This document shows positions 1,772 through 31,830 of a stretch of DNA of 64,000 nt, one piece after another. The translations under genes and the position numbers were made by a program. This DNA comes from Sinohyriopsis cumingii (lineage: Eukaryota > Mollusca > Bivalvia > Unionida > Unionidae), in NCBI GenBank assembly GCA_028554795.2, contig CM068841.1, forward strand, positions 25,291,308 to 25,355,307, given 5' to 3'. Each line of letters begins with the position of its first letter. Position 1 is the first letter of the stretch. A model generated the notes under the pieces. The model did not search any database and was not told the origin of the DNA. It was given only the letters and a program-made list of their open reading frames with translations.

Positions 1772-2515
1772 ATGGCTACCTCTGCTATCTCTGCTCCCTC
1801 TTCCTCTGCTGTCAAAGTCATCGACGAACACTTAAATCGTGCTAGTTGGGAGGCTTTGTATTTTCGCCATCCCTTTAACATGCTCATTGCTGTACCTAGC
1901 GGTTCAGGCAAAACCGAATTCGTCAAACGTTTGATCGAACATAAACATCATTTGATCGATCGGCCACCTCAACGGATCGTGTGGTGTTACAAAGAGTGGC
2001 AATCGTCGTACAGCCTCTTGCGAGAAAGTCAAGGCGATTCCATCGTGTTTGTGGAAGGCATTCCTAAAGAAGACGACGGCATCGTCTCTGACTCCCGTCA
2101 AACCCATTTGGTCATTTTCGACGACATGTTAGGAGAAGACGAAGAAGAAATTAAATTGTGGTTCACGCGCAAAGGGCATCACCGTAATGCCATTGTCGTT
2201 TACATCACCCAAAATTTGTTTCAACAAAGTAAAGCCCATTGCACCATCAGTCTCAATGCGCATTACGTGGTCTTGTTTAAAAGCCCTCGAGATAAATCGC
2301 AAGTGCAAGTCTTAGCCAAACAGTTAGGAACGCGTTGGCTGACTCAGGCGTACGACGATGCCACTCAAACTCCACACGCCTATTTACTCGTCGATTTGAA
2401 ACCTACGACCCCCGAGGATTTGCGATTTCGTCCCCACTTGTTTCACCACTGGTGCCAAGACGGAGGGCCTGTCCTGTACACGTCCCCGTCCTCGACTTCA
2501 TTTCACTCCACATAA
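1772..2515 (+). CDS. FtsK/HerA-type DNA packaging ATPase
   Basis: The 247-residue protein is the genome-packaging ATPase of Polintons and adintoviruses, which pumps DNA into preformed capsids. Walker A is VPSGSGKT at residues 41-48, Walker B is HLVIFDDM at about 112-119 with Asp117 and Asp118, and the polar sensor-like segment YITQN follows at 144-148. This order and size are typical for the family. The start is set by an ATG 47 bases after a TATA box. A basic core-like gene follows with its own promoter. The frame is open throughout. Confidence 0.93.
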   Translation: MATSAISAPSSSAVKVIDEHLNRASWEALYFRHPFNMLIAVPSGSGKTEFVKRLIEHKHHLIDRPPQRIVWCYKEWQSSYSLLRESQGDSIVFVEGIPKEDDGIVSDSRQTHLVIFDDMLGEDEEEIKLWFTRKGHHRNAIVVYITQNLFQQSKAHCTISLNAHYVVLFKSPRDKSQVQVLAKQLGTRWLTQAYDDATQTPHAYLLVDLKPTTPEDLRFRPHLFHHWCQDGGPVLYTSPSSTSFHST

Positions 2516-4625: not shown

Positions 4626-5735
4626 ATGGAAAAAGTCTTAGCTAGCATTTACTACGATCCCTCGCATCCTGCAGGTTACGCAGGAGTTCAAAAATTGTAT
4701 CGTGCTGCCAAAACGCGACTGAAAAGTCTCCGTTTACCTCAAGTGCAACGATGGTTACAAGAACAAGCTACCTACACTTTACACAAACCCATTCGACGCA
4801 AGTTTGCCAGAAGTCGCACCCGAGTGGAAGGCATCGATCATCAATGGCAAGCCGATTTAGCCGATGTCTCTCATTTGGCCAGCTACAATCGTGGCTACAA
4901 ATATTTGTTTTGTGTCATCGACGTCTTTTCCAAATTTGCCTGGGTCGTGCCCTTGACTTCCAAATCCAGCAGCGAGTTAGTGCGAGCCCTGCAATGGGTG
5001 TTGAAACAAAGCGGTCGTCACCCTCTTCGATGGCAAACGGACAAAGGCACCGAATTTCTGAACCAAGCTTTCCAAAAAGAATTAAAGAAACGTGACATTC
5101 ATTTTTTTACCATTGAGAATCCCGAAACCAAAGCCAGCATCGTGGAACGTTTTCAACGCACTTTAAAAGAACGCATGTGGAAATATTTTACGCATCACCA
5201 CACTCTGAATTACATCGACATCTTACCACACCTGGTGCAAGCGTACAACCAATCTTACCATCGAAGCATTGGACGTGCCCCGCAAGAAGTGACTCCTGAC
5301 AACGAAGTGCTGGTGTTTGAGCGCCTGTTTGGTACGTCCCCGACGAGAGCTGTCCCCAAGAAAAGTGGAGAGTTGGCCGTAGGAGATTGGGTGCGCATAC
5401 TCAAAACCAAATGCACTTTCGACAAAGGTTACTTACCTAACTGGACGACCGAATTGTTTCGCGTCACTGGACGAATGCATGGCCGTCATCCTGCCGTCTA
5501 TAAATTGGAAGACATGAACGGAGAAGTGCTCAAAGGAACGTTTTATTTGCCCGAGTTACAACGTGTCACCAAAAAAGAAGACGACGTGTACGACATCGAA
5601 AGCATTCTCGAACGCAGAACCCGTAAAGTGGGCAAACGACGTGTCAAAGAAGTCAAAGTACGTTGGAAAGGATATCCACCCAGTTTTGATTCTTGGTTCG
5701 ACGCTTCGCAAGTCATCGACTATAAAAAGAAGTGA
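4626..5735 (+). CDS. Retrovirus-like integrase with chromodomain
   Basis: The 369-residue protein is an RVE-family DDE integrase that would insert linear element DNA into the host genome. The catalytic acids are Asp77 in WQADLAD, Asp139 in WQTDKGTEF and Glu174 in SIVERFQRTL, giving the expected D-D(35)E core. An SH3-like region follows at about 245-310. Residues from about 318 to the end form a chromodomain (YDIESIL at the start, VRWKGYPPSFDSW near the end), which in integrases of this type is thought to direct insertion to marked chromatin. It differs from the integrase of element 2, which lacks a chromodomain. The frame is fully open. Confidence 0.95.
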   Translation: MEKVLASIYYDPSHPAGYAGVQKLYRAAKTRLKSLRLPQVQRWLQEQATYTLHKPIRRKFARSRTRVEGIDHQWQADLADVSHLASYNRGYKYLFCVIDVFSKFAWVVPLTSKSSSELVRALQWVLKQSGRHPLRWQTDKGTEFLNQAFQKELKKRDIHFFTIENPETKASIVERFQRTLKERMWKYFTHHHTLNYIDILPHLVQAYNQSYHRSIGRAPQEVTPDNEVLVFERLFGTSPTRAVPKKSGELAVGDWVRILKTKCTFDKGYLPNWTTELFRVTGRMHGRHPAVYKLEDMNGEVLKGTFYLPELQRVTKKEDDVYDIESILERRTRKVGKRRVKEVKVRWKGYPPSFDSWFDASQVIDYKKK

Positions 5736-7539: not shown

Positions 7540-8848
7540 ATGATGCACCGAGAGTCTTGCGCCTGTTCCAAGACGGAACTGGATCTGTTTGCCATGCCCC
7601 CCACGATGATGACGATGCAAGAATCCCAATGGGTGGAATTTCACCCCGTCTCCTCACTGGCCGATTCTGCTCCCATCGAGTTTGAAATCAAGGGACAGCC
7701 CGAAGATTACATCGATCTGAATAGCAGTTACTTGTACTTGAAAGTCAAAGTTCTAGATAAGGATAATAAAGCAGTAGAAGACACTGAGAATATAGCTCCC
7801 GTCAACAATTTCATGCATTCCTTGTTCAGCTCAGTGGATTTGTACTTGAATAACAAACTAGTCAGCAGCAGCATGGATACTTACCCTTACCGTGCCTACC
7901 TGGAAAATCTCTTGACGTACGGAATAGATGCCAAGGATACTCATCTCAATGACTGCGTGCTGTGGGAACCTGACGAAGCGAAGGAGTTTGACACATTAAA
8001 AAAAAGACAATGACGGCTTTGTGGAAAGACAAAAGAAAATCCTAGGTGAACAGAGTTTAGAACTGATGGATCGTTTGCATTTGGACATGTGGTTGCAAGA
8101 GAAATATTTGCTGAACGGTGTCAATGTTCGCCTGAGACTGAATCGTAGCAGTGCCGCTTTCCATTTTTTGGCTGATACTGCTGCTGGCAATCCTAAACGC
8201 AAAATCGAGGAGGCCAAACTCTACGTACGACGCGTGGAAGTGTTACCCAAAGTAGGTAACGAAATCAGTCAAACGTTGAGCAGAACGACCGCCAAGTATA
8301 CCATACGACGTGTGGAAGTGAAAACGTTCACCATTCCTGCTGGACATCATTCCATGATCGAAGATCATCTGTTCCAAGGACAGTTACCCAAGCGTTTAAT
8401 CCTTGGTATGGTCGAGAATGAAGCCTTCAACGGAGCCTTCCCTAAAAATCCTTTCAACTTTCAACACTTCAAGGTGAAGAAAATCGAAGTCAGTCGCGAT
8501 GGCAAGACCTTGTGTACCCGACCTTTCGAACCTGACTTTAGTGACGAGAAGATGAATTACTTGAGATCGTACTTGTCCCTGTACGAAGCCACCGGCCAGT
8601 TAGGAACCAACACCAGTCACGGCATTACGTACGACGATTACGCAGGAGGCTATGCTTTGTGGGCTTTCGATTTCACTCCAGACCAAGGCAGCGACGAGGG
8701 ACATTTTCACCCTATAAAATCTGGCCAGATTCGTGTGGAACTTCAGTTTGCAGATAAACTGACAGCGACAGTCAACGTCATCCTGTATGCAGAATTCGAT
8801 AATACGATAGAAATCAACAGTTTGAGAGAAGTCATTCTAGATTACTAG
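7540..8848 (+). pseudogene. Double-jelly-roll major capsid region (fossil, broken)
   Basis: The phrases ELDLFAMPPTMMTMQESQWV, IEFEIKGQPEDYIDLNSSYL, NNFMHSLFSSVDLYLNN and DTYPYRAYLENLLTYG are diagnostic of the Polinton/adintovirus major capsid protein, which forms the pseudo-hexameric capsomers. The later half keeps family features such as GHHSMIEDHLFQGQLPKRL and EIEFDNTIEIN-like strands near the end. The region is about the expected length for the family but is broken in this copy, which argues that element 1 is not fully functional. Confidence 0.88.
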
Positions 8849-9383: not shown

Positions 9384-9944
9384 ATGGATACCTGGGAGCT
9401 TTATTACCTTTTGAACCACAGTTCGTATACAGCTTCTTGGAATCCTGTCGTCTGTGCTAAAGATGAACTCCCTCATCGCAAACCTAAAGACCATCAATCT
9501 TACGTAATCAACACGGACGACAGTCATCTCCCAGGAACCCACTGGGTAGCCGTCTACTTTCGTCAAGAAGGATGTGTGGAATATTTCGATTCGTACGGAT
9601 TGCCTCCTTTGGAAGACGATATCATTGACTTTATGAGAAGAAATGCTCAAACCACCCGATTCAATAACGTGAAATTACAAGGCACAGATTCCTTGGTGTG
9701 TGGACAATATTGTGTGTATTTTCTGCATCATCGCAGCCTGGGCTATTCCTTAGAACATTTAGTGACTCATTTTGATCCTCGTTCTTCTTCAAGAAACGAT
9801 GTGAAAGTAGATCGATGGTTTTGTGACCATTATGCTTATCTTTTGTCTCAAGCTAGGAAACATAGTGTCAATCAATGGTCTAATGACTTCCAACAGTGGA
9901 AATCACAATTTCATTCACAACGTTGTCAGCCCTGTTTAAAGTAG
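9384..9944 (+). CDS. Adenain/Ulp1-type cysteine protease
   Basis: The 186-residue product is the maturation protease of the element. The catalytic set is His53 in GTHWVAVYF, Asp69 in YFDSYGLPP, Gln99 in KLQGTDS and Cys106 in LVCGQYCVYF, the order found in adenovirus endopeptidase and Ulp1-like enzymes. The family cleaves precursor capsid and core proteins during virion maturation. The ATG at 9384 is the first methionine that leaves the family fold intact. An AATAAA follows 110 bases downstream. Confidence 0.92.
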   Translation: MDTWELYYLLNHSSYTASWNPVVCAKDELPHRKPKDHQSYVINTDDSHLPGTHWVAVYFRQEGCVEYFDSYGLPPLEDDIIDFMRRNAQTTRFNNVKLQGTDSLVCGQYCVYFLHHRSLGYSLEHLVTHFDPRSSSRNDVKVDRWFCDHYAYLLSQARKHSVNQWSNDFQQWKSQFHSQRCQPCLK

Positions 9945-10185: not shown

Positions 10186-10214
10186 GGGGATGTTTTCCTT
10201 CACGTCCGCGCTTT
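10186..10214 (+). promoter_or_regulatory. Shared upstream box, copy of gene A
   Basis: GGGGATGTTTTCC followed by TTCACGTCCGCGCTTT lies about 65 bases before the gene A start. The same box occurs before genes B and C, always followed within 15 bases by a weak TATA-like stretch. It is probably the core promoter or an activator site of this gene set. Confidence 0.65.
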
Positions 10215-10277: not shown

Positions 10278-10475
10278 ATGTGCTCCAAACTAGCTAAGCT
10301 CAACGAAGCCTACGTGAATTTGCATAGGGTCAGACACAGTCTGATACCGAAGCCAGAAGAAATAGAGAATGTGAGAATGCTAAAAGTTACTGAAGACCTA
10401 ATAGAAGAGCTCTTCAGAGAAGAAGTGAACAGGGAGAAAGAAGAATGGACAGAGAAGTACAGACTTCAGAGATAG
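10278..10475 (+). CDS. Coiled-coil gene A of the triplicated right-end cassette
   Basis: The ATG at 10,278 gives 65 residues: a charged helical protein with EDLIEELFREEVNREKEEW, predicted by eye to form an amphipathic helix or coiled coil. The helix core resembles ARKMIEEMIEEEVKRL in gene C and ARRILNELAAEAIVEEA in gene B. The gene lies between a shared upstream box and a histone-type stem-loop. A CAG/CAA run and further open sequence follow it. No known domain is recognised. Confidence 0.5.
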   Translation: MCSKLAKLNEAYVNLHRVRHSLIPKPEEIENVRMLKVTEDLIEELFREEVNREKEEWTEKYRLQR

Positions 10476-10517: not shown

Positions 10518-10673
10518 CCTGAACCTGACAGAGGCTTTGTCGATTTTCGTATCGACACCAAAGAGTTCTTCTTCTCTTTCCGAAGAAGCAGACCTATTGC
10601 CAGAAAGTCTATCCTCAGAGGACATCGCATTCTTAGAAACTAACAGATTGCCGTAGCAAACAAAAAAAAAAAC

Positions 10674-10694
10674 AGCCCTTTTCAGGGCTACCCA
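10674..10694 (+). promoter_or_regulatory. Histone-type 3'-end stem-loop, gene A
   Basis: AGCCCTTTTCAGGGCT (10,674-10,689) forms a 6-bp stem with a TTTC loop and is followed directly by ACCCA, the flank seen in metazoan replication-dependent histone mRNAs. A-rich sequence precedes it. A purine-rich TAGAAAAGAAATAAC follows at 10,701-10,715 where a U7-binding downstream element would lie. No AATAAA is present between gene A and the stem-loop. Confidence 0.75.
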
Positions 10695-10715
10695 ATACTC
10701 TAGAAAAGAAATAAC

Positions 10716-11050
10716 CATCCATTTGCCAATGTGTGTAGGTAGAGTAGTGTGAATATAAACACTAACTCTTTTTTTAAAAAAATGTGAGGGTATGTGATTG
10801 TGTGTTTGTGTTTGTAAGTGATCACGTACGTTGGTATGGATAGTAGATTAAAATAATGTTTTTTGGTGTTTGAGGTGTAGATTTGGGGTTAGATTGGATT
10901 GATTTGCGTATGTAAATAGTCTATTGAAGTGATTTATAAAAAAATTTAAAATAGTGATGGGTAGCATAAAAAAGTGAGTGAGTGTTTCTTTTAGGTCCGC
11001 GCGTTGTTGTTTTAGGTCATGATCTAGCTAAGATCAATTTTATGTTTTTT
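10716..11050 (+). repeat. Inter-gene spacer, first copy of duplicated module
   Basis: No ORF is supported. The first 60 bases (CATCCATTTGCCAATGTGTG onward) recur almost exactly at 11,535-11,595. Near the right end, 11,018-11,050 carries TGATCTAGCTAAGATCA, a 6-bp inverted repeat around a 5-base centre, which recurs at 11,781. A partial box, TAGGTCCGCGCGTTG, lies at about 10,992. The spacer was duplicated with the genes. Confidence 0.65.
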
Positions 11051-11091
11051 AGGGGGATGTTTTCCATCACGTCCGCGCTTTCAGTATAAAT
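11051..11091 (+). promoter_or_regulatory. Shared upstream box and TATA, gene B
   Basis: AGGGGGATGTTTTCC and CATCACGTCCGCGCTTT (11,051-11,081) are followed by GTATAAATTG (TATA at 11,084). The ATG of gene B is about 60 bases downstream. Confidence 0.65.
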
Positions 11092-11147
11092 TGAAACTCG
11101 CTCAGCAGTCTAGCTACCCTTGTTAATTGATCAACACCACCAGAAGA

Positions 11148-11459
11148 ATGAACACCAGAATTGTGAAACTGCTAGAACTCCAGATGCACCTGGAATATGC
11201 CAGGCGCATACTAAATGAACTGGCCGCGGAGGCCATTGTCGAAGAAGCAAGAATGAAAGAGGAGGAGGAGGAAAGAAGAAGAAAAGAAGAGGAGAGAAGA
11301 AACAAAGAAGAGGAGAGAGGAAATTTCAGAATCCCAGAGACAGAAAATTGGGATTCTGAAGCCACATATCCCGCCTCTGCACTCCCAAGAAGAAAGGTGA
11401 AAGGAGACTGGGGAAGAAGATGCGTGTGTGGCGCCAGGCCAGGAAGGTGCCATCATTAG
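11148..11459 (+). CDS. Coiled-coil gene B of the triplicated cassette
   Basis: The ATG at 11,148 gives 103 residues. Residues 5-60 are a long charged helix (LLELQMHLEYARRILNELAA, then a Glu/Arg-rich run EEEEERRRKEEERR). The C-terminal part contains a CVCGARPGRCHH tail with three Cys and two His that could bind a metal. It shares helix pattern, upstream box, 3' stem-loop and spacer with genes A and C. Function is unknown. Confidence 0.5.
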   Translation: MNTRIVKLLELQMHLEYARRILNELAAEAIVEEARMKEEEEERRRKEEERRNKEEERGNFRIPETENWDSEATYPASALPRRKVKGDWGRRCVCGARPGRCHH

Positions 11460-11491
11460 ATAGGTGCATCTGGAGTTTAAAAAAAACCAAC

Positions 11492-11512
11492 AGCCCTTTT
11501 CAGGGCTACCCA
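11492..11512 (+). promoter_or_regulatory. Histone-type 3'-end stem-loop, gene B
   Basis: An identical AGCCCTTTTCAGGGCT plus ACCCA lies 32 bases after the gene B stop, again preceded by A-rich sequence and followed by CTAGAAAAGAAATAAC at 11,518-11,533. There is no AATAAA between gene and stem-loop. Confidence 0.75.
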
Positions 11513-11742
11513 ATACTCTAGAAAAGAAATAACTATCCATTTGCCAATGTGTGTAGGTAGAGTAGTGTGAATATAAACACTAACTCTTTATTAATAGTGA
11601 GAGTGTATGTGTTTGTGTGTTAGTGATTGTGTTTGTAACTGCTCACGTAAGTTCGTGTGAATAGTAGATTATGGGTTTCTTTATTGTTTCTTAGCGTATG
11701 TGGAGAGTATAGTTAGGGTTTTATTATATGAAATGAGAAAGT
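11513..11742 (+). repeat. Inter-gene spacer, second copy
   Basis: No ORF is supported. The first 80 bases repeat the spacer after gene A (10,695-10,770) almost exactly; the rest has drifted. Confidence 0.6.
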
Positions 11743-11854
11743 AGGGGGATGTTTTCCTTCACGTCCGCGCGTTGTTTGGTCATGATCTAGCTAAGATCAA
11801 TTTTATGTTTTTTAGGGGGATGTTTTCCATCACGTCCGCGCTTTTCGTATAAGA
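11743..11854 (+). promoter_or_regulatory. Double upstream box and TATA, gene C
   Basis: Two copies of the box occur here: 11,743-11,770 (variant ending GTCCGCGCGTTG) and 11,814-11,843 (ending GTCCGCGCTTTT). Between them lies the TGATCT/AGATCA inverted repeat shared with the gene B promoter. A GTATAAGAAC stretch follows at 11,847. Gene C starts about 55 bases later. Confidence 0.65.
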
Positions 11855-11903
11855 ACCCACAGTATTCGTCGTTCAAACCATTCTACGGAATAACAGATAC
11901 AAG

Positions 11904-12503
11904 ATGGAAGTGTCAGCGTTGTTTAATGATTTAAGAAATGTTTACTTTTGGATGATGAATGGAGAGTATACTATTGAAAGGATAGAAAGAGAATGGAGGT
12001 TGAGAAAAAGTCTTGACTATGTCAATGAACTACAATTAGCGAGGAAGATGATAGAGGAGATGATAGAGGAAGAAGTTAAGAGATTGAGAGGATTGATTCA
12101 AACAGAGTATGTAAGAGTGGGGACTATAAAAGAGTCTATGGACAAGGTAAAAGCTGTGAGATGCTATTTAGAAGAGCTAGAGAAATGGTCAGAGTGGAAG
12201 TTCGTGAAAAGGGGCATTGAACAACTAAAGAAAGCGGAAGAAAAGATGAAAAAGATAATAGAGGAAGAAGTGCAGAAAATTAAGGACAGGTGGGCAAAAG
12301 ATAGAAAAGAACAAGAGAATAGAAAAGAACAAGAGAATAGAAAAAAAAAAGAAGAATATGAGAGACTGAACAATAACTGGATAAAAATCCAACAGAAGTT
12401 CCGAGCCATGGGTCACCCGGACTGGATACCGGAAAATGAAAAGAAGAAGAAAAAAGGAATTTGGGGAAAGATTAGGGGCTGGATGAGGAAATGGAGGAAA
12501 TAG
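11904..12503 (+). CDS. Coiled-coil gene C of the triplicated cassette
   Basis: The 199-residue product is the longest of the three. It is almost entirely charged helix with heptad-like patterning (ARKMIEEMIEEEVKRLRGLI at about 54-73, IEQLKKAEEKMKKIIEEEV at about 105-125), a short tandem repeat RKEQEN(RKEQEN), and a basic Trp-containing end (GIWGKIRGWMRKWRK) that could bind nucleic acid or membrane. I do not recognise a family. The context suggests a non-structural gene acquired or amplified at the right end of the element. Confidence 0.6.
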   Translation: MEVSALFNDLRNVYFWMMNGEYTIERIEREWRLRKSLDYVNELQLARKMIEEMIEEEVKRLRGLIQTEYVRVGTIKESMDKVKAVRCYLEELEKWSEWKFVKRGIEQLKKAEEKMKKIIEEEVQKIKDRWAKDRKEQENRKEQENRKKKEEYERLNNNWIKIQQKFRAMGHPDWIPENEKKKKKGIWGKIRGWMRKWRK

Positions 12504-12515
12504 AAAAAAGCCAAA

Positions 12516-12536
12516 GGCCCTTTTCAGGGCCACGCA
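12516..12536 (+). promoter_or_regulatory. Histone-type 3'-end stem-loop, gene C
   Basis: GGCCCTTTTCAGGGCC is preceded by CCAAA and followed by ACGCA, very close to the histone consensus. Relative to genes A and B the first stem pair has changed from A-T to G-C on both sides, a compensated change. CTCGAAAAGAGAATGAC at 12,542-12,558 resembles a histone downstream element. The stem-loop begins only 12 bases after the stop. Confidence 0.8.
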
Positions 12537-12599
12537 TATTTCTCGAAAAGAGAATGACTTTTCAATTGCCTACCCCTTGTTTTAAAATAATTTTTTTAA

Positions 12600-12850
12600 A
12601 AATTTAAAAAAAAAAAAAATCCCATATTCAAATCCCCTTGTCCCTAGACAGACCCAAACTCTATTGACCATGTTCAATTTTCTCTTGTCCCTAGACAGTC
12701 CCAAACTCTATTCCCATGTAATGCTAATTCCCCTTGTCCCCAGATTGTCCCACGATTTTTCTCCATGTTAAATTTACATAGTCCCCAGGGTACAACCCTC
12801 CTAGTTTAACATTAAAGTCCCATAGTCCCTAGGGTATCCCCATTCACTAC
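12600..12850 (+). repeat. Right-end degenerate repeat block of element 1
   Basis: After a poly-A/T stretch, units of about 45-50 bases recur with decay: CCTTGTCCCTAGACAG occurs at about 12,640 and 12,689, and weaker forms (TTGTCCCCAGATTGTCCC, ATAGTCCCCAGGGTA, ATAGTCCCTAGGGTA) follow to about 12,835. This is probably the right terminal repeat. Its partner would be outside the window. The exact end cannot be fixed; a CACT at 12,845-12,848 is one candidate. Confidence 0.5.
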
Positions 12851-15165
12851 TTATGTTCATGACATGTTGGTGCAATGTGAGAGTACTGTCCAGAGTAACA
12901 CCTCGGTTTCGTACTGATTGTGTGAATTTAATGTTGGTGTTGCTGATATTTATTGTTTGAGGTAAAGTATGTGAATGAGAAAGTCTTTGTGTTGTGATCA
13001 GAATGGCCTCAGTTTTATCATCATTCATCTGCAGCTTGTTACATGTCATCCATGATTTCACATCAGAAATGCACCTCTCTACACCTTGGATGGTAGCATC
13101 AGCTTCAGTTGTGTGGCTGGATTTGTATATTTGGGTGTCATCAGCGTACAATTGGTGAGATACTGGATGATGATCTATGACACTTGAGAGCGACTGAGTG
13201 TACAGAATGAAGAGAACAGGTCCAAGAACAGACCCCTGTAGAACACCACAACATATATCAACTGGGCTGGAGTGTATTCCATTTGCAGACACAATTTGTG
13301 TCCTGTTGACCATGTAGGACTTGAACCACAGTAAGGCTGTATCATGAATGCCAAATATATGCTGGAGACGGTAAAGTAATATATCAGGGTCTATTGTGTC
13401 AAATGCTGCAGACAAATCAAGGAGGGTGAGGACTGTAATCTTTCCGCTATCCAACGCAGAGAGAATGTCATTAACTACTTTTAGAAGAGTAGTTTCAGTA
13501 CTGTGACAAGGGCGATATGCAGATTATACATTGCTAAAAAGACTGTTTGAATTTAGATGAGATACAGGCTTGGATAGAACAACCTTTTCTAAGATTTTTT
13601 ATATGAATGGGAGATTAGAAACTGGGCGGTAGTTCTTTAAATCGTTATTGTCTAGTGTTGGTTTCTTCAGCAGAGGCTTTACAATGGCAGTTTTGAAAAA
13701 TGATGGGAATTCCTCGGATGAGAGAGAGGTATTAATAACATCAATTAGTGAAGGCAGTAATGGATCTAAGCACTCCAGCAGCAGTGATGTTGGAATTGGA
13801 TCAAGTTCACATGACTTTGGTGTACATTTCATCAGGATTGTACGTACGAAATCCATAGAGACAGGTTCAAATGCTGCTAATGGTTGCCGCTCAAATTCTG
13901 TATCCCAACTGTATGGTGACGACGAGTCAGTTGAAATTGTGTTGTCAAGCTTATCTCTAATGGTTTGTACTTTGTCACGGAAGAAATTTGCAAACATGTC
14001 CGGAAGGTCGACTGGAGAGAAGGTAGTTGGAAGTGGTGTAGATTTGTTCCTTGACATTAGCTTGTTAGTAATCTCGAAGAGCTCTTTGCAGCTGAAACTT
14101 TCCATGATCTTAGTAATGTAATGGGCTGATTTCGCTGCATGGACTATATTTGTGACATTTTTCTAAGCGGCTTCATAGATTTGCTTATGAATAGTGAGTC
14201 TGGTGGAAAGCCAGAGCCTCTCAGCTTTACGGCGGCCTCTTTTAGCAGTGCGAAGCTGGTCCCTAACACTGCTATACCATGGAGAACACTTTTGAATTGA
14301 TACTCTGCACTTGGTAGCTGGGGCATGTTTGTCAAGCAATGAACGCAGGCAGTTATCGAGTTGTTCTGCGGTAGGAGGTAAGCAAGTTGTTAGGTTAGCT
14401 TGGATGCCGTGCATTAGTTTGGTTCTGTTTATCATACGGAGGTTTCTCTTAGTGGAAGATAAAGGTGGAGTGACTGATATGTCAAGATGGCATATAATGC
14501 AGAGGTGATCTGATGCAAGGTCATGGGATACCACGGAGGACCGTAGAATGTTATCATCAGGTCTATGAAGAATCCAGTCTAAAATGTGACTATGCTTATG
14601 GGTGGTTTGGTTACTGACTGTTTGAGGTTGAAAACATTAATGGAATCTATGAGTTTTGATGTATTTGAGTTTCCGAGACAGTCAAAGTGAAAGTTGAAAT
14701 CTCCAAGAATAATCAGGTTGCCACCTATCGAATTTCCATAGTCCAGGAGATTTGGAAACTGCTCCAGAAAAGAGAGAGTCAGCTAGCTTGTTTTTTCTAC
14801 TAGGAGGAGGGCGGTATAGGCAGAAAAAATCGACTGACCTTTGCTCCAGTGTGAGTGTGGTTTGGACTAGTTCAAACGATGTGTGGTCGAAATTGAATGT
14901 TGTGGTGTGGTTAAGACGTTTTATCATGGAGTTCTTTGTGATGACAGCAATTCCACCTCCGCGAGAAAAACGGAGGAACGACTTGATAGAGTAACCAGTG
15001 GGTGTTAGATCCGCATACTTGGGCTCATCGCCTGATGCTTTTAGCCATGTTTCTGTCAGAAAACAAATACGTCAGTATTCTGGTCGATGATAAAATTAAC
15101 TATTTCTGTGCGCTTTTCCGGTGGTCCTACTGACTGGGCATTGAATAATGCAAGAAACGGGGGGG
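12850..15165 (-). mobile_element. LINE (CR1/L2/Jockey group), EN and RT
   Basis: Reading on the minus strand, an endonuclease starts near 15,150 (ALFNAQSVGPPEKRTEIVNF), continues with GGNLIILGDFNFHFD at about 14,700, then the reverse transcriptase from 14,105 (LKNYRPVSNLP, DLSAAFDTIDPDILL, GVLQGSVLGPVLFILYT, LYADDTQIY with YADD at 13,137-13,148). The frame is interrupted several times. Coding sequence stops abruptly after TLTLHQHVMN at about 12,852, before the usual end of the RT domain. Because LINEs normally lose their 5' end, this 3' loss suggests that element 1 inserted here and the rest lies beyond the window. Confidence 0.85.
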
Positions 15166-18982: not shown

Positions 18983-19657
18983 CTAACCGAATATTTGGTC
19001 AAGTCCGATACGATATCGTGTCCGAGGATCATGTAAATTTATCGTTACGAATCCATGTGGGGTCGACTGAGCATGACTAAAAAAGTTTCGAAAAACATTA
19101 AAGTCCATGTCACCGCCGCACCATGTCTGCCAAATATTTCGTAGCGTGTGTGTATCAACGCCGTTGAACACAGCAAGAATATTACAGTTGTCTCTAATTA
19201 CTTTTGGAATCTGAGTGTATCGTTGAGTGACATATATCACGTCAGTGTTTTTATGCCTGCCTCTGGAAAATATCCTAGCTGGGTTTTTTTGATTGTCTAA
19301 CATAACATCATCGTACACGACTAGATTGTTAACGTCGCCATCAATATCATCAATACCCGGTGCATCATTGATATCCGTAATAAACTCAATAACATTTTTT
19401 TTAGCGATCGCTGATGCATTCTCGTTGAAATCTTTTAACACCTCGTAGCATCGTTGATCATCTACGCTAGGAGCCACCAAATACAACTTATCCCACTTCA
19501 TCCATCTCATTATTAAATTGAGTAACAATTGCGTCTTGCCGGATCCAGATGGTCCGATGATAATCATCCGGATCGAGTTTGGTAACGCTGCAACATGCTT
19601 AACTGGTTCTCTTGTTTTAGTCGCCGAAAAATCAATTATATTCATATCTCTATACAT
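18983..19657 (-). CDS. Packaging ATPase of element 2
   Basis: The 224-residue protein is an A32/FtsK-type packaging ATPase. Walker A is GPSGSGKT at residues 35-42, Walker B is NLVVYDDVML at 111-120 with Asp116 and Asp117, and VIYVTQRYTQIPKVI at about 140-154 is the sensor region. The N-terminal and C-terminal parts differ strongly from the element 1 ATPase. The gene starts only five bases from the divergent zinc-ribbon gene and ends 30 bases from the left repeat. Confidence 0.93.
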   Translation of the reverse strand: MYRDMNIIDFSATKTREPVKHVAALPNSIRMIIIGPSGSGKTQLLLNLIMRWMKWDKLYLVAPSVDDQRCYEVLKDFNENASAIAKKNVIEFITDINDAPGIDDIDGDVNNLVVYDDVMLDNQKNPARIFSRGRHKNTDVIYVTQRYTQIPKVIRDNCNILAVFNGVDTHTLRNIWQTWCGGDMDFNVFRNFFSHAQSTPHGFVTINLHDPRTRYRIGLDQIFG

Positions 19658-19662
19658 AAATT

Positions 19663-19941
19663 ATGGATCTATATTGTGTGAAGTGTAGAGTGCGTACTGG
19701 CACAAATGATATGACAACCGTTACAACAAGAAATAATAGATCGGCGCTTACTGGCAAGTGTGTACAATGCGGTACAAAGAAATTTAGATTTATTTCTATT
19801 AGACCCGGAGATGTTTTAAAAAAAAGCGAGGAGGTGACATCGCAGCCAAATTGGCAAAACTCCCCGGAACACCGTGGGCAAAGTATCCAGGAGAAAAACA
19901 CCTCCCAGGATATAACTACTGTGGCCCCGGAACACGATTAG
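19663..19941 (+). CDS. Zinc-ribbon protein (DUF5679-like)
   Basis: The first 45 residues, YCVKCRVRT then LTGKCVQCGTKKFRFI, form a CxxC...CxxC zinc ribbon very like DUF5679, a small domain I associate with Polinton and adintovirus proteins that also carry a phospholipase A2-like domain. The ATG lies five bases from the start of the divergent ATPase gene. The remainder of the 92 residues is polar. The phospholipase-like ORF overlaps its 3' part in another frame; how the two are expressed together is not resolved. Confidence 0.7.
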   Translation: MDLYCVKCRVRTGTNDMTTVTTRNNRSALTGKCVQCGTKKFRFISIRPGDVLKKSEEVTSQPNWQNSPEHRGQSIQEKNTSQDITTVAPEHD

Positions 19942-20201
19942 ATATTAGACTCGATGATCAAAATCAGCCCAAACCCGGTGAGTATCCAATAAACGCTATC
20001 GATAAGGCGTGTCATGCTCATGATGTTGCTTATAAAAGTAGCGATCTGCAACAGCGTCATATCGCGGATGTAAAATTAATTCACGCATTAAATGCTATTC
20101 CTGATAAATCCGTCAAAGAAAAATTGGCCTCATGGTTGGTAAAATCGGCTATGAAAGGTAAATTAATGATTGGAAGCGGAGCTTCTCGCGCTGGTAATTG
20201 A
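19851..20201 (+). CDS. Phospholipase A2-like domain (parvovirus VP1-type)
   Basis: The open frame encodes LPGTPWAKYPGEKHLPGYNY then CGPGTRLDIRL, the calcium-loop region, and INAIDKACHAHDVAYK, which holds the His-Asp catalytic pair of the family. A downstream RHIADVKLIHALNAI helix completes the fold. In parvovirus VP1 and in several Polinton-like elements such a domain helps the particle breach endosomal membranes. The frame is open some distance upstream of 19,851 without a clear ATG, so the true start is unknown. Confidence 0.8.
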   Translation: MAKLPGTPWAKYPGEKHLPGYNYCGPGTRLDIRLDDQNQPKPGEYPINAIDKACHAHDVAYKSSDLQQRHIADVKLIHALNAIPDKSVKEKLASWLVKSAMKGKLMIGSGASRAGN

Positions 20202-20226
20202 AAACGATAGCGTTTATAATAACAAC

Positions 20227-21156
20227 ATGGAATCCATCTATTATTCTCCGAGAGGATACTGGAAAGGGAAGGCCGCAATTGGTAAGCTTGCAAGCGCTGC
20301 AAAGGTAACAAAGGCCACTGCGGCTAATTGGTTATCCAAACAGGCTATATGGCAAATCTATCTACCACCGCCTAAACAAATCAACTTCTCGCGCTTTGAT
20401 GTCAGCGTACCTAATGAAGTTCATCAGGCTGATATACTATTTCTGCCGCATGACAACGGTTACAAATACGCGCTAACCGTAGTTGATGTTGCGAGTCGAT
20501 ACAAACAAGCAGAACCGTTAAAAACAAAGTCAGCAACTGAAGTGGCCGATGCGTTTGAGCGGATTTATCGAAGAGGTCCTCTGCGCTGGCCAAATCTATT
20601 ACAAGTTGATCCTGGTAGTGAATTTCGCGGCGCTGTTTTATCAACGCTGACACATCATAGCGTCGCGATACGACGAGGTCATACTGCGCTACATCGTGAT
20701 CAGGCAATTGTTGAACGATTCAATCGGACTCTTGCTGAACGGTTATTTGGATATCAATACGCGAAGGAATTCATCCAAGAAAAACGATCTCGTGAATGGG
20801 TTAAAAGGTTGCCAGGTGTAATTGCAGCGTTAAATAACGAGATTACCCGAGCAATCAACATGAAGCCCAGCGACGCGATTAAATACGAGTATATACCCGG
20901 AAGATCAAAAATAGATAGCGTTTCCAAGCCGATTCTCGGCGATGTCACTGTCAGATATCTGTATGAACCAGGAGAGCTTGAAGGCGGTAAAAAAAGAGCT
21001 ACTGATCCTATTTGGAGTGTTACCACACATAACATATCAACTGGTAGACCACCGATCTATAGACTGGATTCAACTGCTCCTCAGCGCGGATTTACACGCG
21101 AGCAACTACAAGTGATACCTAACGATACTCAATTGCCCCCACGTGGTCTTAACTAA
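20227..21156 (+). CDS. Retrovirus-like integrase, no chromodomain
   Basis: The 309-residue protein (ATG at 20,227 in AACAACATGG) has a HTH-like N terminus (AKVTKATAANWLSKQAIWQI), the DDE core with Asp69 in HQADILFL, Asp128 in LQVDPGSEF and Glu163 in IVERFNRTL, and an SH3-like C-terminal part (VTVRYLYEPGELEGGKKR, PIYRLDS). Unlike element 1 there is no chromodomain. It would insert the linear genome and create the 6-bp duplication seen at the ends. Confidence 0.95.
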   Translation: MESIYYSPRGYWKGKAAIGKLASAAKVTKATAANWLSKQAIWQIYLPPPKQINFSRFDVSVPNEVHQADILFLPHDNGYKYALTVVDVASRYKQAEPLKTKSATEVADAFERIYRRGPLRWPNLLQVDPGSEFRGAVLSTLTHHSVAIRRGHTALHRDQAIVERFNRTLAERLFGYQYAKEFIQEKRSREWVKRLPGVIAALNNEITRAINMKPSDAIKYEYIPGRSKIDSVSKPILGDVTVRYLYEPGELEGGKKRATDPIWSVTTHNISTGRPPIYRLDSTAPQRGFTREQLQVIPNDTQLPPRGLN

Positions 21157-21421
21157 CGCCGTTGCGTCTATTGCACTCAAGACAGGTCAACCTCACATTG
21201 TTTTTGACATGACCGAGACTGTTATCGATCCTATCCACGGTAAATTGGCGAGTGTCTTTATCCGAATAACGCCAACTCATTATACAATTGCAACTCGCGC
21301 AGTGATTATTCTGTTTTTGTCGTAGCGAGATTATTAATTCGGCATCAATATCAAAACGCCGCTGTTTTTTTTTTATCCTGTTGGCGGTAACCCGAGAGTT
21401 TTCTATCAATGACGCTTGCAT
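21149..21421 (-). CDS. HNH endonuclease overlapping the polymerase gene end
   Basis: Residues after MQASLIENS carry NNHCASCNCIM, then FTVDRIDNSLGHVKNNVRLT and CLECNRRNGV, an HNH fold with two CxxC zinc-binding pairs. The ATG at 21,421 gives 90 residues; an earlier ATG at 21,481 would add 20 low-complexity residues. The 5' part overlaps the 3' end of the polymerase-helicase gene in another frame. It could be a processing nuclease or a selfish nuclease. Such overlap suggests translation from the same transcript. Confidence 0.7.
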   Translation of the reverse strand: MQASLIENSRVTANRIKKKQRRFDIDAELIISLRQKQNNHCASCNCIMSWRYSDKDTRQFTVDRIDNSLGHVKNNVRLTCLECNRRNGVS

Positions 21422-24400
21422 CGATGGTGACTTTGTCGCCGGCTTCGTCAGTGACTCCGTCACCGGCTCCGTCAATAACAATTCTTCGAAGCTGATTTAT
21501 CCTTCGTACTCTGGACACTGCAAGATAGACTAGATTCGACCATTCGATGCGATTATCAACTATCCAAACAATTGTGTCCGTGATGGTTAGTCCCTGCGAG
21601 GAATGTATTGTTGTTGCGTATCCTAGCGTCCACGGGGATTTATCAGCACGTAGCGCGTCCTCGACGACACCGATATCAACGAGCACGATATCATTCAGCA
21701 CGAGAATTTGTTTTTTTGTCCCCGACGCTGTCGGGGCTGGAATTTCAACTTCAATGTTCTGCCGCCGTGTGTCCGCGGGTCTATAACATAACGGCACTGG
21801 ACGCGTTGGAAACTTTTCCTTATGCAACGTAAACAACTTCCGCTGAAGTGTGTCTCTGACTATCTTTCTACTCGCCACAATCAAATCATTTGGTCTCCAT
21901 GTTTCCCAGAATTTATTTAACGGCGTTTCCGGAATCACCTCGCGGATTATTTCACATTGAATTCTATCCGGCTGTAATCTGATTAATTTCTTAACCCCGC
22001 GCAGTTGTTCATCAAGTGCTCGGTAATCAGTATCGGTTTCTTCATAATAGTCCACAAAACCCTTTAACCAATTATGTGGACCCTCGCCGACAAATGGTGG
22101 TGGTTGGCCATGGTCGCCACACATGATCACCGCTGTATTCGCGCGCAGCAACCAATCAAGAAACATTTGCAAAACATCTAACGAAACAGTACATATTTCA
22201 TCCCAGATGATAATGTCGGGAATAAATTTTTCACCCATTCGATCAGGAGTCCACTCGCCGCCGCTGTATCGAAAAAAGCTGTGATAAGTAACGGCGTCAA
22301 CATTTCGTTGTTTTATCTCTCGCGCTAGTCTATGGGTCGGTGTAAGCACGATTGTACTTGCCCGTGTTCGAAATAATTCAATTGCCCGAGTCGTCTTTCC
22401 TGACCCGCCACAGCCGCTTAAATAAACCGTCTTGTGTCTACAAATTGGATCAGAACACGGTGGTGCATTAGACCATTCCGATAATTTATCACCGCGTAGG
22501 TAATTGTTTTCAACGGTGACATCTGCTGACGGGGAATAATCGCGTCGTATTTCATTTTTAATTCTCCATGTACCCCAACTCTCGTCCGGACTAGTAAACC
22601 CGGCTACGTTTTCCTTATACGCTACGTCAATATAAAATGAATCAACGGCTACTCTAACCGCGGTGTCGGGGAATCTATTTATCATCGAGAATAAATTGAT
22701 AGCGGCGTAACCCAGCATAGACGCCCTCAAATGCGGGTATGCTGGGCTGTCTCCATCGCTGTAGGTAACAACTGTACCCAACTTTGTTCCACTGGACAAG
22801 AAAGCTGTTTCGCAGTTCACGTATCTATTTTTCGCCACTGCGTCCTTGATTACGAAATCATATTCTGCGTCATCTATAATCAGCCGTGAGCAATATCGTT
22901 TGTAATCGCAGTTTTTTCCACCCTGTGTGAACTTACCGATTATTCTTCTACCGAGATCTTTTGCCTCGCGGTTTCGTTGGTAGAATATCCTCCTGGACCA
23001 TTCGATGATATATTCCTCGTCGGCATCGATGTGTTTTCTGGATTCGTCAATTATGCTATCTAGACGCTCCGGTTCTGGTAACCAGACTTCAGTCTGCGCT
23101 CGGTATGATATAATCGCGTCACTGACAATCAACGAAACTAGCATTTTACAGTCAATCATATACCGTAGCAGCGCTATTGGCAACCACTTCTTTTCATTCA
23201 TGTGTCTACCGATCCAAATATAGCAACAGCGATGAAGTCCTGCCGCAAATTCAAATGATACTATGCGAGCGAATCCGGTTAAATCAAAATCAGGCAGTGG
23301 TCCATTAATAGCAACACGAGTCATTTCATGTCTGGGGTGTCCAAATCGTTTGAAATACTCAGCGGCGGATCCATACCCGAGAAAACTCGCTGGATAACAG
23401 GCAACCATATCAACCGAGATCATAGCGTCGCGGTTGTATTCAGTGTTCCATAGTCCACCGTGATAGTATTCCAAACAACTGGATTGTACATCCGGTAGAA
23501 ATTCCCTGCGCGTTGGTCTCCACGCATTTTTCCTTGCTGCAACATGAGCCGCAACCGATGGAATCGTAAAACAATTTGTTAGCAGTTGTTCATCATGCTC
23601 CTCAAATTCTATGGCGGTTTTTTTCATCCTGTTGTGAAACGCTTCAGTGCGATATAATTCACCGTTTGGTCTTACAAACTGATCAAAGGTATCCGCATCG
23701 TTTTCAGCGCTGCGAAGTAACCACACTGATACAGGGTCGTTTTTACACAAGTAGGCAATAGCATCAAATAGTTTCCTCTCCGCGAGAAAACCGTCCTTGG
23801 AGAATTGTTCTCCCAGGAATTCTTCGGGTATATACTTTACTGTTCTATCCCGTGGAAATATTGTGATCACGGGCGTCCATGCGTGTTCGTTATGATCAAT
23901 AATTTTGATTGGGGCTCCCTTCGATTTATACTTCGATTCGTATAATACTTCACCGGTTATCGTTGTAACGGTTATTGGAAATCTCAGCGATGTTTCTAAT
24001 CTCGCTATGTCGCTGATGGTTGCTCCACGCTCTTTTACGGTTAGTTCCCACTGGTTGATTTTGCTACGTCGTAAATCAGTCAATTTGTTTCCTCGACATG
24101 CATTTGTAAAATGCTCTATTATTCGTTCTGCTACACAATTTATCCCAGTTGACTGTTTCATCGGTTTCAGTTTTCCGATATCAGGTTTCTTATTTAACGG
24201 GTATATTCCATAAACAACTGCTGTTTCAGGATACGCTCGTTCATAGTATGGTTTGTCAATTCCGGTTAACAACCCCGGCTTGGAGTCGCGGCTGACAGTG
24301 ACTGTTTTCTTGTCGCTGAGAACTGGTTCAAATTTATCACGTATGATCCAATCGCCTGATTCCACCCGGACAATGAATTTTACTCTGAAGAAATACCTTT

Positions 24401-24653
24401 TACCGTCAAGTTGTGATATTATCGTTACTGCGCGGTTGTCGTTCATGGTAGCATCAACAACACCATCAATTCGAAATGTTGACCAACTGTGAGATGCACC
24501 ATCACGCTTGAATTCATTGATACAATCGCGTATTTTACTCAACAGGGTTCTATCGTTTATTAACGCTTTTGGTGTGTCCTTGAGGACTCTATCGAGATTG
24601 AACTTAATATTTTTCCGGGGTTTAATTACTGCTAATCTCTCGAACTCATCCAT
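21351..24653 (-). CDS. B-family DNA polymerase fused to SF1 helicase
   Basis: The 1100-residue protein joins two enzymes. Residues 411-680 hold polymerase motifs: A in SVDMVACYPA (Asp415), B in RRIIGKFTQGG (569-579) and C in VAVDSFYID (Asp671). From about 740 a superfamily 1 helicase of RecD/Pif1 type follows: Walker A GCGGSGKTT (747-755), Ia IVLTPTHRLAREI, Walker B IIIWDEI (814-820), III MCGDHGQ (844-850), V TTIHSSQGLT (1014-1023) and VI LAVSRVRR (1044-1051). I see no clear 3'-5' exonuclease motifs in the first 400 residues. It would replicate the element. The gene starts 21-39 bases from the divergent gene at 24,675. Confidence 0.85.
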   Translation of the reverse strand: MDEFERLAVIKPRKNIKFNLDRVLKDTPKALINDRTLLSKIRDCINEFKRDGASHSWSTFRIDGVVDATMNDNRAVTIISQLDGKRYFFRVKFIVRVESGDWIIRDKFEPVLSDKKTVTVSRDSKPGLLTGIDKPYYERAYPETAVVYGIYPLNKKPDIGKLKPMKQSTGINCVAERIIEHFTNACRGNKLTDLRRSKINQWELTVKERGATISDIARLETSLRFPITVTTITGEVLYESKYKSKGAPIKIIDHNEHAWTPVITIFPRDRTVKYIPEEFLGEQFSKDGFLAERKLFDAIAYLCKNDPVSVWLLRSAENDADTFDQFVRPNGELYRTEAFHNRMKKTAIEFEEHDEQLLTNCFTIPSVAAHVAARKNAWRPTRREFLPDVQSSCLEYYHGGLWNTEYNRDAMISVDMVACYPASFLGYGSAAEYFKRFGHPRHEMTRVAINGPLPDFDLTGFARIVSFEFAAGLHRCCYIWIGRHMNEKKWLPIALLRYMIDCKMLVSLIVSDAIISYRAQTEVWLPEPERLDSIIDESRKHIDADEEYIIEWSRRIFYQRNREAKDLGRRIIGKFTQGGKNCDYKRYCSRLIIDDAEYDFVIKDAVAKNRYVNCETAFLSSGTKLGTVVTYSDGDSPAYPHLRASMLGYAAINLFSMINRFPDTAVRVAVDSFYIDVAYKENVAGFTSPDESWGTWRIKNEIRRDYSPSADVTVENNYLRGDKLSEWSNAPPCSDPICRHKTVYLSGCGGSGKTTRAIELFRTRASTIVLTPTHRLAREIKQRNVDAVTYHSFFRYSGGEWTPDRMGEKFIPDIIIWDEICTVSLDVLQMFLDWLLRANTAVIMCGDHGQPPPFVGEGPHNWLKGFVDYYEETDTDYRALDEQLRGVKKLIRLQPDRIQCEIIREVIPETPLNKFWETWRPNDLIVASRKIVRDTLQRKLFTLHKEKFPTRPVPLCYRPADTRRQNIEVEIPAPTASGTKKQILVLNDIVLVDIGVVEDALRADKSPWTLGYATTIHSSQGLTITDTIVWIVDNRIEWSNLVYLAVSRVRRINQLRRIVIDGAGDGVTDEAGDKVTIDASVIDRKLSGYRQQDKKKTAAF

Positions 24654-24692
24654 ATAATTAAAACAAGTATTTAAATGAAAGAATATAGTATA

Positions 24693-25016
24693 ATGAATAA
24701 ATGCAAATGGTTGATGATTGGGTCGACAACCCCGTGCAATAAATCATGTAGAGGTGAATTCTGCGGATATCATTTACAAAGCGTTCGTAATGGTTCTCTT
24801 GGCCCCCTCCCGTGCTTGGTTTGCCACGTCGGTGTAAGAGGAAAATCGCAGTTGTGTATTAATTGTGGCGGAAAGCGATACAGGGAACTAAAACGCTATT
24901 ATGACAAGCGAATTAAAAACGCCGTCATTGACCCCACCGCTGACTTCGTCATCAAAACCCCCCAAGACTACGTTGAAAGATTCATTATTAAACCAAATAA
25001 TAAATTAGACAAATAG
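24693..25016 (+). CDS. Cys-rich putative zinc protein
   Basis: Starting at the ATG at 24,693 (an earlier ATG exists at 24,675), the product has Cys/His groups CKWLMIGSTTPCNKSC, FCGYH, PCLVCHVG and LCINCGGKRY in about 65 residues, enough for two or three zinc sites, and a basic helix RYRELKRYYDKR. It is divergent from the polymerase-helicase gene with almost no spacer. DNA or RNA binding is likely from composition, but the family is not recognised. Confidence 0.6.
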   Translation: MNKCKWLMIGSTTPCNKSCRGEFCGYHLQSVRNGSLGPLPCLVCHVGVRGKSQLCINCGGKRYRELKRYYDKRIKNAVIDPTADFVIKTPQDYVERFIIKPNNKLDK

Positions 25017-25029
25017 TATTATTATATAA

Positions 25030-25533: not shown

Positions 25534-25677
25534 CGAAGTCACCGGCGCCTATGGCGCTGACGAAGTCGCCATGACAATAAATTGTCCATTCCGGAAGAAA
25601 ACAAAGTATGAACACCTCGGGATCGATACACGGGGTTTCATTTTTTTTATTTAAAAACAAGATGTTCTATAAGAATA
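25534..25677 (+). promoter_or_regulatory. Intergenic stretch with GACGAAGTC repeats
   Basis: GACGAAGTCACC and GACGAAGTCGCC flank a GGCGCCTATGGCGC inverted repeat. Related GACG(A/G)AGYCACCGGC units lie in the 3' end of the polymerase gene near 21,430-21,475. An AT-rich promoter-like stretch precedes the next ATG. Confidence 0.4.
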
Positions 25678-27862: not shown

Positions 27863-27899
27863 ACAGAATTCAAAGAAAATCGCAATTGAAAACATCAAC

Positions 27900-29339: not shown

Positions 29340-29367
29340 TTGAAAGCATAAAAGCGTTTACAATAAA

Positions 29368-29775: not shown

Positions 29776-29834
29776 GACTACCGGGAACCCGTATTCATGG
29801 TACTCGGGAAAGGGTCTAAGACTACCGGGAACCG
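29763..29834 (+). repeat. 44-base-spaced direct repeat before the protease
   Basis: GGAAAGGGTCTAAGACTACC followed by GGGAACC occurs at 29,763 and again at 29,807, a tandem duplication that covers the junction of the two genes. Confidence 0.8.
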
Positions 29835-29838
29835 TTTA

Positions 29839-31252: not shown

Positions 31253-31277
31253 AAACACTAGCTCTTTTAAAATAAAA

Positions 31278-31799: not shown

Positions 31800-31830
31800 T
31801 ATTAAACACTAAAGACAACAAATAATAATA

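Follow-up and report, generated by a model that had tools for sequence, protein, structure and literature searches.

A mobile element in the genome of Sinohyriopsis cumingii appears to have adopted both the promoter and the 3' end of its host's histone genes. In the copy described here (element 1), the right end has three small genes and the left end two that very likely use the signals for S-phase histone expression, making at least five in all. Judged by their sequences, right-end genes 1–3 and the left-end pair end in a host-like histone stem-loop, flank, and purine box, and genes 1–3 start from what reads as a host histone promoter box beside a TATA-like sequence. In the best reading, the element has taken over both ends of host histone genes, so that the mRNAs of these genes are probably non-polyadenylated and linked to S phase. 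In metazoans, histone mRNAs are singled out as the class without the poly(A) tail that is borne by all other eukaryotic mRNAs (PMC12775136). A sequence-only reading had proposed from the hairpins that the element mRNAs would be non-polyadenylated, bound by SLBP, and restricted to S phase; this interpretation is supported, and we infer the same fate for these mRNAs.

Element 1, an integrated Polinton, belongs to a very large family in the host genome. It is 20.1 kb long and reaches to the left beyond the window (the whole 64-kb stretch of DNA analyzed). Its terminal inverted repeats are identical at 333 of 345 aligned positions, have the AG..CT ends of Polinton/Maverick elements (AGTAGTGAATGG..CCATTCACTACT), and are bordered by a 6-bp target site duplication, as is also typical of that group. 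The Polinton/Maverick gene set is present, with a PolB, an rve integrase, an A32-type ATPase, and an Ulp1/adenain protease (Table 1). The polymerase gene is broken into two frames, one of which matches PF03175 (PolB; E 1.8e-41). Two ORFs (7540–8013 and 8066–8848) have no Pfam match and are candidates, by position alone, for double jelly-roll capsid genes.

Table 1. Features of element 1 in the window (positions count from the first letter of the window; a dot marks features without strand).
Feature	Position	Strand	Remarks
Packaging ATPase	1772..2515	+	Pox_A32-like, E 3.5e-5
Integrase	4626..5735	+	Pfam: rve core, E 3.2e-13; chromodomain (Chromo), E 2.7e-7
Adenain-like protease	9384..9944	+	Peptidase_C5, E 0.0064, below cut-off; homologues; AATAAA at 10054
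Promoter box, gene 1	10189..10211	+	1 mismatch to host H2B; TTTAAG 6 nt on
Right-end gene 1	10278..10475	+	65 aa here; in other copies, the frame stays open longer (e.g., L041 812–1165)
Stem-loop, gene 1	10674..10689	+	Histone-type; RF00032 match 10669–10714, 31.0 bits, under gathering score; exact pattern
Purine box GAAAAGA, gene 1	10703..10709	+	By sequence, like histone downstream element; conserved 13 nt past hairpin
21-nt word TTTCTTTTAGGTCCGCGCGTT upstream of gene 2	10985..11005	+	Identical to host H4 promoter region
Promoter box, gene 2	11056..11078	+	Exact host H2B 23-mer (24-mer with next base); TATAA 6 nt on
Right-end gene 2	11148..11459	+	103 aa; stop 32 nt before hairpin
Stem-loop, gene 2	11492..11507	+	Histone-type; RF00032 match 11487–11532, 31.7 bits, under gathering score
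Purine box GAAAAGA, gene 2	11521..11527	+	By sequence; conserved spacing
Distal (second) promoter box, gene 3	11748..11770	+	1 mismatch to host H2B
Proximal promoter box, gene 3	11819..11841	+	Exact host H2B 23-mer; TATAA 6 nt on
Right-end gene 3	11904..12503	+	199 aa; model mostly helical; stop 12 nt before hairpin
Right terminal inverted repeat	12507..12851	.	Begins in 5' flank of hairpin 3; partner at L039 2740–3076, just left of window
Stem-loop, gene 3	12516..12531	+	Histone-type, within terminal inverted repeat; RF00032 match 12511–12556, 37.1 bits, E 3.4e-7
Purine box GAAAAGA, gene 3	12545..12551	+	By sequence; conserved spacing
Target site duplication TATGTT	12852..12857	.	Second copy at L039 2734–2739

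The three right-end hairpins, read as AGCCCTTTTCAGGGCT behind genes 1 and 2 and GGCCCTTTTCAGGGCC behind gene 3, have the 6-bp stem, UUUC-type loop, and ACCA-type flank of histone mRNA 3' ends. They were recovered by the Rfam Histone3 model (RF00032) at significant E values of 3.4e-7 (gene 3), 3.3e-5 (gene 2), and 6.4e-5 (gene 1), an outcome in favor of the sequence-only reading; one exceeds the gathering score of 34 and two fall just under it. The window holds no fourth match to the model. A pattern for histone-like hairpins (a perfect 6-bp stem starting with GG, AG, or GC and a 4-nt loop starting with T) likewise matched exactly three sites on the two strands of the 64 kb. The details of the sequence-only reading were also borne out: the 3' flanks are ACCCA, ACCCA, and ACGCA in gene order, CCAAA precedes the third hairpin (CCAAC precedes the second), and the first stem pair is altered on both sides. 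Two further hairpins lie at the left end of element 1, outside the window, giving five in this copy. When these five ends were aligned with five host histone ends, all 60 stem cells were paired and two of the six stem pairs had two-sided changes, that at the first pair being the only one among the element ends and the other occurring in host H1. The distance from stop codon to hairpin is about 12–32 nt in the four genes measured. A loose RF00032 search (E up to 10) found matches in all 14 bacterial and archaeal control genomes, none of them over the cut-off. An origin of the hairpins as Rfam noise was rejected, given that host histone genes score in a similar range.

The host genes for H3, H4, H2B, H2A, and H1 lie in tandem in one array unit, and each has an RF00032 match (35.0–39.4 bits) and a purine box. 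In alignment, the loop, flank, spacing, and GAAAAGA box of the element ends resemble these host histone ends, including the purine-rich downstream element, and TCTAGAAAAGA occurs unchanged both in element genes 1 and 2 and in host H3 and H2B. The purine-rich element of the sequence-only reading is thus present, with GAAAAGA beginning 13 nt after the hairpin. The same reading had noted that AATAAA was missing before the hairpins, and indeed neither AATAAA nor ATTAAA occurs between stop codon and hairpin of genes 1–3 (the 60 nt leading up to the hairpin in the case of gene 1), while the protease gene of the element does have an AATAAA. Both signals are also absent from the 60 nt after the hairpins of genes 1–3. 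Farther downstream of genes 1 and 3, ATTAAA occurs at 10847 and 12811, respectively.

A feature beyond the sequence-only reading is the host histone promoter box carried by genes 1–3. Like the 3' signals common to element and host histone genes, it speaks for the interpretation offered by that reading. These boxes end in GTCCGCGC and lie upstream of TATA; two are exact copies of the host H2B box and two have one mismatch. The box of host H1 also differs from that of H2B by one mismatch and is located 5 nt before a TATA-like sequence, compared with 6 nt in the element genes. Host H3 has no box upstream, and that of H2A is found only inverted, with four mismatches. The rest of the window shares no words of at least 18 nt with host histone promoters, and the left-end gene pair has no promoter box at up to five mismatches.

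These signals recur throughout the host genome. The hairpin with its purine box has 36,564 exact matches (none for the reversed control), and the exact promoter box has 30,227 copies, those of host histone genes included (none for the control). Classification of the top genome matches as histone genes was rejected, as the flanks of loci L001–L008 resemble element copies by eye. Among the hairpins listed for a stretch of contig C1, 55 are of the AGCCC type; for 41 of these, an exact promoter box lies 421–515 nt upstream on the same strand, and none of the 55 has an opposite-strand box within 700 nt. At the RF00032 gathering threshold, 13 of 20 loci have a match, once each, at gene 3.

That the hairpins persist at other loci, a check proposed with the sequence-only reading, was confirmed. 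In 30 loci picked by the gene 3 protein only, the exact hairpin is present in 27/31, 25/29, and 24/30 ends of genes 1, 2, and 3, respectively. Variants common to at least three copies occur at none of the 16 hairpin sites and none of the seven purine box sites, compared with 17, 12, and 33 of 87 flank sites in the same loci. Flank windows of 16 nt as conserved as the hairpin number 9, 20, and 4 of 78 for the three genes. Upstream of gene 3, two promoter boxes (0–3 mismatches) were found in 30/30 loci. These boxes are only moderately more conserved than their surroundings (2.6 and 3.8% minority letters, compared with 7.1% over the whole 260 nt), and shared variants occur at two of 23 sites in each box and at 55 of 260 sites in the region.

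The most likely origin of these signals is capture from a host histone array, followed by copying among element genes. Host histone transcription factors would then switch on the element genes at the start of S phase, and SLBP and the U7 snRNP would cut the pre-mRNA a few nucleotides past the hairpin, leaving a non-polyadenylated mRNA. SLBP would mediate translation of this mRNA, which would be degraded at the end of S phase. By its place in the terminal repeat, one histone-type 3' end may serve the outward gene at each element end. The likely gain would be accessory proteins made in step with replication, in cells that offer the DNA synthesis machinery on which the element depends.

Alternatively, a Polinton ancestor may have taken up a histone-gene fragment, with the signals spreading as unused passengers. 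The five 3' ends do look by eye like copies of one ancestor, with shared sequence reaching some 45 nt beyond the hairpin, and most hairpin changes in a given gene occur in one copy only, as drifting insertions would show. However, shared variants are numerous in the flanks and absent from the hairpin and purine box, the hairpins closely follow the stop codons of different genes, the promoter box stands 6 nt ahead of a TATA-like sequence in three genes, and the first stem pair has changed on both sides. We consider passive carriage improbable. Use of both kinds of 3' end, with polyadenylation replacing the hairpin end outside S phase, has been reported for host H2A.X (PMC7807067). For the element, it would fit the ATTAAA motifs downstream of genes 1 and 3 and also left-end gene L2. 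In this copy, AATAAA flanks the L2 hairpin on both sides, and in six of 21 copies AATAAA or ATTAAA directly precedes it; L2 may for this reason sometimes be polyadenylated. Yet the last 12 nt or so before the hairpin are free of both signals at the other four ends (33/33, 36/36, 34/34, and 15/15 copies, most L1 copies coming from loci that the hairpin itself had revealed), and such mixed use is very unlikely.

The hairpins could also have a role at the DNA level or in a different RNA process (replication of terminal repeats, packaging, transcription termination, or 3' ends in the manner of Mimivirus) and only resemble histone ends. The location of one hairpin within the terminal inverted repeat at each element end is compatible with this. 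Transcripts of Mimivirus and virophages also end at hairpins, although their mRNAs are polyadenylated and their hairpins differ from the histone SLBP hairpin. Three of the five hairpins of element 1 lie outside the repeats, however, and the likeness to host histone ends extends to loop, flank, spacing, and GAAAAGA. In addition, host histone promoter boxes accompany the hairpins, and both features are missing from the second Polinton in the window. Such a role seems exceedingly improbable compared with use of the histone expression signals.

The element genes share with replication-dependent histone genes the hairpin, the flank, the purine box spacing, and small intronless frames, and with the host histone array the promoter box near TATA. 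They differ in that their proteins lack Pfam histone matches and that they reside in a mobile element with copies on many contigs. With Polintons/Mavericks and adintoviruses, element 1 shares PolB (PF03175), the rve integrase with its C-terminal chromodomain, the A32-like ATPase, the adenain-like protease, inverted repeats, and the 6-bp duplication. Adintoviruses have been defined by a PolB with an OTU-like N-terminal domain and an adintovirus-like hexon (PMC11071296). In the available parts of the literature searched, the adintovirus-defining paper excepted, no description of a histone-type promoter or 3' end was found for Polintons or adintoviruses, and the promoter core as a letter string had no matches. 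For Polinton-like viruses (PLVs), the section concerned in a 2025 survey of cryptophyte PLVs (PMC12220804) offers a bare count without discussion; none is recorded there in cryptophyte PLVs, and that section draws no tie to genes, promoters, or host histone genes.

Among viral sequences in IMG/VR, no relatives were confirmed with one candidate capsid frame, the gene 3 alignment, one polymerase frame, or the protease as queries, and hairpin patterns had no matches; the candidate capsid frame also found no relatives in a phage collection. In GTDB genomes, the promoter box is absent, and the single match to the hairpin with purine box, on a Lachnospiraceae contig, was judged a chance terminator. 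The sole profile match for SLBP in the host genome (E 0.72) was rejected, its neighboring frames resembling by eye those of yet another Polinton. Identification of host U7 by a U7-like pattern was rejected as well (19 sites, compared with 38 in the control). Among eight such sites inspected, none had a convincing hairpin; at one of them the RF00066 model matched below threshold (21.0 bits, E 0.06), with the 3' hairpin missing.

If the signals are used, they link expression of selfish DNA to host S phase and provide non-histone substrates for SLBP/U7 biology, and the timing of Polinton expression becomes a directly testable question. Poly(A)-selected RNA-seq would presumably miss such transcripts, which could explain why they were overlooked earlier. 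Tens of thousands of element ends stand against 662 histone candidates at first look. With such numbers, a broader scenario is conceivable, if on balance doubtful: full mimicry of histone genes at both gene ends, with accessory genes firing along with host DNA replication, RNAs that also titrate SLBP and the U7 snRNP or draw their loci into the histone locus body, and histone supply as a battlefield between host and element.

Regarding the product of gene 3, models from five sequences predict a mostly helical protein (best pLDDT 75.5, the other four 59.6–66.1), from which no function follows. This protein has four homologues at 44–54%, and the host genome has 150 scored copies of the gene.

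Ten kilobases of DNA left of the window (L039) were added to examine element 1. This element is a Polinton of about 20.1 kb, flanked on either side by a TATGTT duplication; its ends read AG..CT, and its inverted repeats agree at 333 of 345 aligned positions. No Pfam confirmation was obtained for a capsid protein in element 1. The copy is damaged: the polymerase is split over two frames and L2, one of the two left-end genes, has an early stop. Gene 1 is shorter than its counterpart in L041, another copy of the element in the host genome.

Features of element 1 and of the remainder of the window (positions with the prefix L039 refer to the DNA left of the window)
Feature	Position	Strand	Remarks
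Element 1	L039 2740 to window 12851		
Hairpin after L1 (77-aa frame)	L039 3051-3066	-	
L1/L2 gene pair	L039 3066-3545		divergent, each with a terminal hairpin
Hairpin after L2	L039 4128	+	
Zinc-knuckle gene	L039 4395-4883	-	in element 1
BIR (IAP-type; inhibitor of apoptosis) gene	L039 9119-9757		inside element 1
PolB (PF03175)	element 1		broken gene spread over two frames, one of which matches
rve integrase with chromodomain	element 1		domain match
A32-like ATPase	element 1		domain match
Adenain-like protease	element 1		match below cut-off
Frames resembling non-LTR retrotransposon reverse transcriptase	12858-14534	-	apparent insertion target of element 1 (by eye)
Second Polinton	18983-33153		integrase, helicase, HNH, and double jelly-roll capsid genes; ATPase-like frame (by eye)
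HNH/NUMOD homing-endonuclease-like gene	25030-25533		within second Polinton
Long A+T-rich palindrome	55162-55253	both	MIR7994 match on both strands, below gathering score

The small single-frame genes of element 1 bear histone-type promoter boxes (genes 1-3, at the right end) and histone-type 3' ends (five genes). The sequence-only reading had placed a histone-type hairpin after each of genes 1-3, and all three were found at those positions. They are the only matches on either strand of the 64 kb to a perfect 6-bp stem (GG, AG, or GC start) with a 4-nt loop starting with T. Comparison of the window with all Rfam families, among them the histone stem-loop model that this reading had proposed to apply, gave three Histone3 (RF00032) matches of 37.1, 31.7, and 31.0 bits, one of which exceeds the gathering score of 34; all are on the plus strand and at genes 1-3. 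The AATAAA attributed to the protease gene is also present. By eye, the zinc-knuckle gene has ATTAAA downstream and no hairpin there.

Two more hairpins lie at the left end, after L1 and L2. The inner edge of the inverted repeat falls within the 5' flank of hairpin 3, which makes the L1 hairpin a mirror copy of hairpin 3; the outward gene at each end of the element therefore terminates inside the repeat. The spacing from stop codon to hairpin is 32 nt in gene 2, 12 nt in gene 3, and about 24 nt in L2 and L1. The L1/L2 arrangement recalls the layout of divergent H2A/H2B gene pairs, and CCAAT, CRE-like TGACGTCA, and TATA sequences are seen by eye between the two genes.

The histone genes of the host are tandemly arrayed, each unit spanning about 8.3 kb, and these arrays point to an animal host. 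In the unit compared here (L067), which contains H3, H4, H2B, H2A, and H1, every gene has an RF00032 match (35.0-39.4 bits) downstream and then a purine box. When five element and five host ends were aligned, the hairpin and the GAAAAG box were common to all ten. A CAATTTGCC-like tail is present in several of them and is closest by eye to that of host H2A. Pairing is retained in 60 of 60 stem cells, with two-sided changes at two of the six pairs. The ten ends are not independent, because those of genes 1 and 2 are near-identical duplicates.

Upstream, the motif that precedes the element genes, GATGTTTTCCATCACGTCCGCGC, is found exactly before host H2B, with one mismatch before H1, and inverted with four mismatches before H2A; within five mismatches, it was not found upstream of H3 or at L1/L2. 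The only non-simple words of at least 18 nt common to the L067 unit and the window are the 24-mer GATGTTTTCCATCACGTCCGCGCT and TTTCTTTTAGGTCCGCGCGTT, both located within element 1, the latter being shared with the host H4 promoter. The distance from the box end to a TATA-like sequence is 6 nt in genes 1-3 (TTTAAG in gene 1), compared with 5 nt in H1 and 29 nt in H2B.

Both the promoter boxes and the 3' ends are retained across many copies of the element. Among 30 loci selected by the gene-3 protein alone, the proportion of ends with the exact hairpin is 27 of 31 for gene 1, 25 of 29 for gene 2, and 24 of 30 for gene 3. For genes 1, 2, and 3, respectively, the mean share of minority letters is 2.0, 1.9, and 1.3% at hairpin positions and 8.5, 5.5, and 16.2% over the rest of the flank; in the purine box it is 0.5% for each gene. 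Variants common to at least three copies occur at none of the 16 hairpin sites or seven purine-box sites, and at 17, 12, and 33 of 87 flank sites; flank windows conserved equally to the hairpin number 9, 20, and 4 of 78. All 30 loci have two boxes upstream of gene 3, with 0-3 mismatches each, and their conservation is moderately higher than that of the remaining promoter sequence (minority letters 2.6 and 3.8% versus 7.1%). At the RF00032 gathering threshold, 13 of a subset of 20 loci match, once each and at gene 3; the gene-1 and gene-2 hairpins in these 20 fall below it. Counts for L1 and L2 are biased, as their source loci were mostly chosen with RF00032.

Persistence of the hairpins at other loci, which the sequence-only reading had wished to see checked, extends from these gene-3-selected loci to the whole host assembly. 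In the 2.9-Gb assembly, RF00032 scores, given for only the best among 589,472 first-look candidates, exceed the gathering score at 75 of 75 sites, such that there are at least 75. At eight of these loci the flanks were inspected, and they resemble element copies and not histone genes. For gene 3, at least 150 copies were scored among 22,292 first-look candidates, and most lack an internal stop. By inspection, the five host histone ends examined all lack the exact hairpin-plus-purine-box pattern, which occurs 36,564 times (reversed control, 0). At five ends per element, this number would therefore correspond to several thousand element equivalents. The promoter box occurs 30,227 times, host histone copies included (control, 0). 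In the listed stretch of C1, a contig of the host assembly, 41 of 55 AGCCC-type hairpins (the count leaves out the GGCCC type) are preceded on their own strand by a box at a distance of 421-515 nt; on the opposite strand, none of the 55 has one within 700 nt.

These features suggest that host histone factors transcribe the element genes and that SLBP and U7 cleave the transcripts. The resulting mRNAs would carry no poly(A) tail, and their expression would be predicted to follow S-phase timing. In titles and abstract openings on adintovirus, polinton, histone stem-loop/SLBP, U7/transposable-element, non-polyadenylated viral mRNA, and mollusc histone topics, a scope outside which the adintovirus description falls (Starrett and colleagues, 2021), no account of such element genes was found. 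Six histone 3'UTR stem-loops are listed in a PLV/virophage collection, undiscussed in the section that lists them (PMC12220804), and the word stem-loop is absent from PMC11071296.

The second Polinton in the window is a useful internal control: it has no Rfam histone hairpin match and no histone promoter word in common with the L067 unit. Elsewhere in the window, the A+T-rich palindrome is, at a guess, probably a small inverted-repeat transposon.
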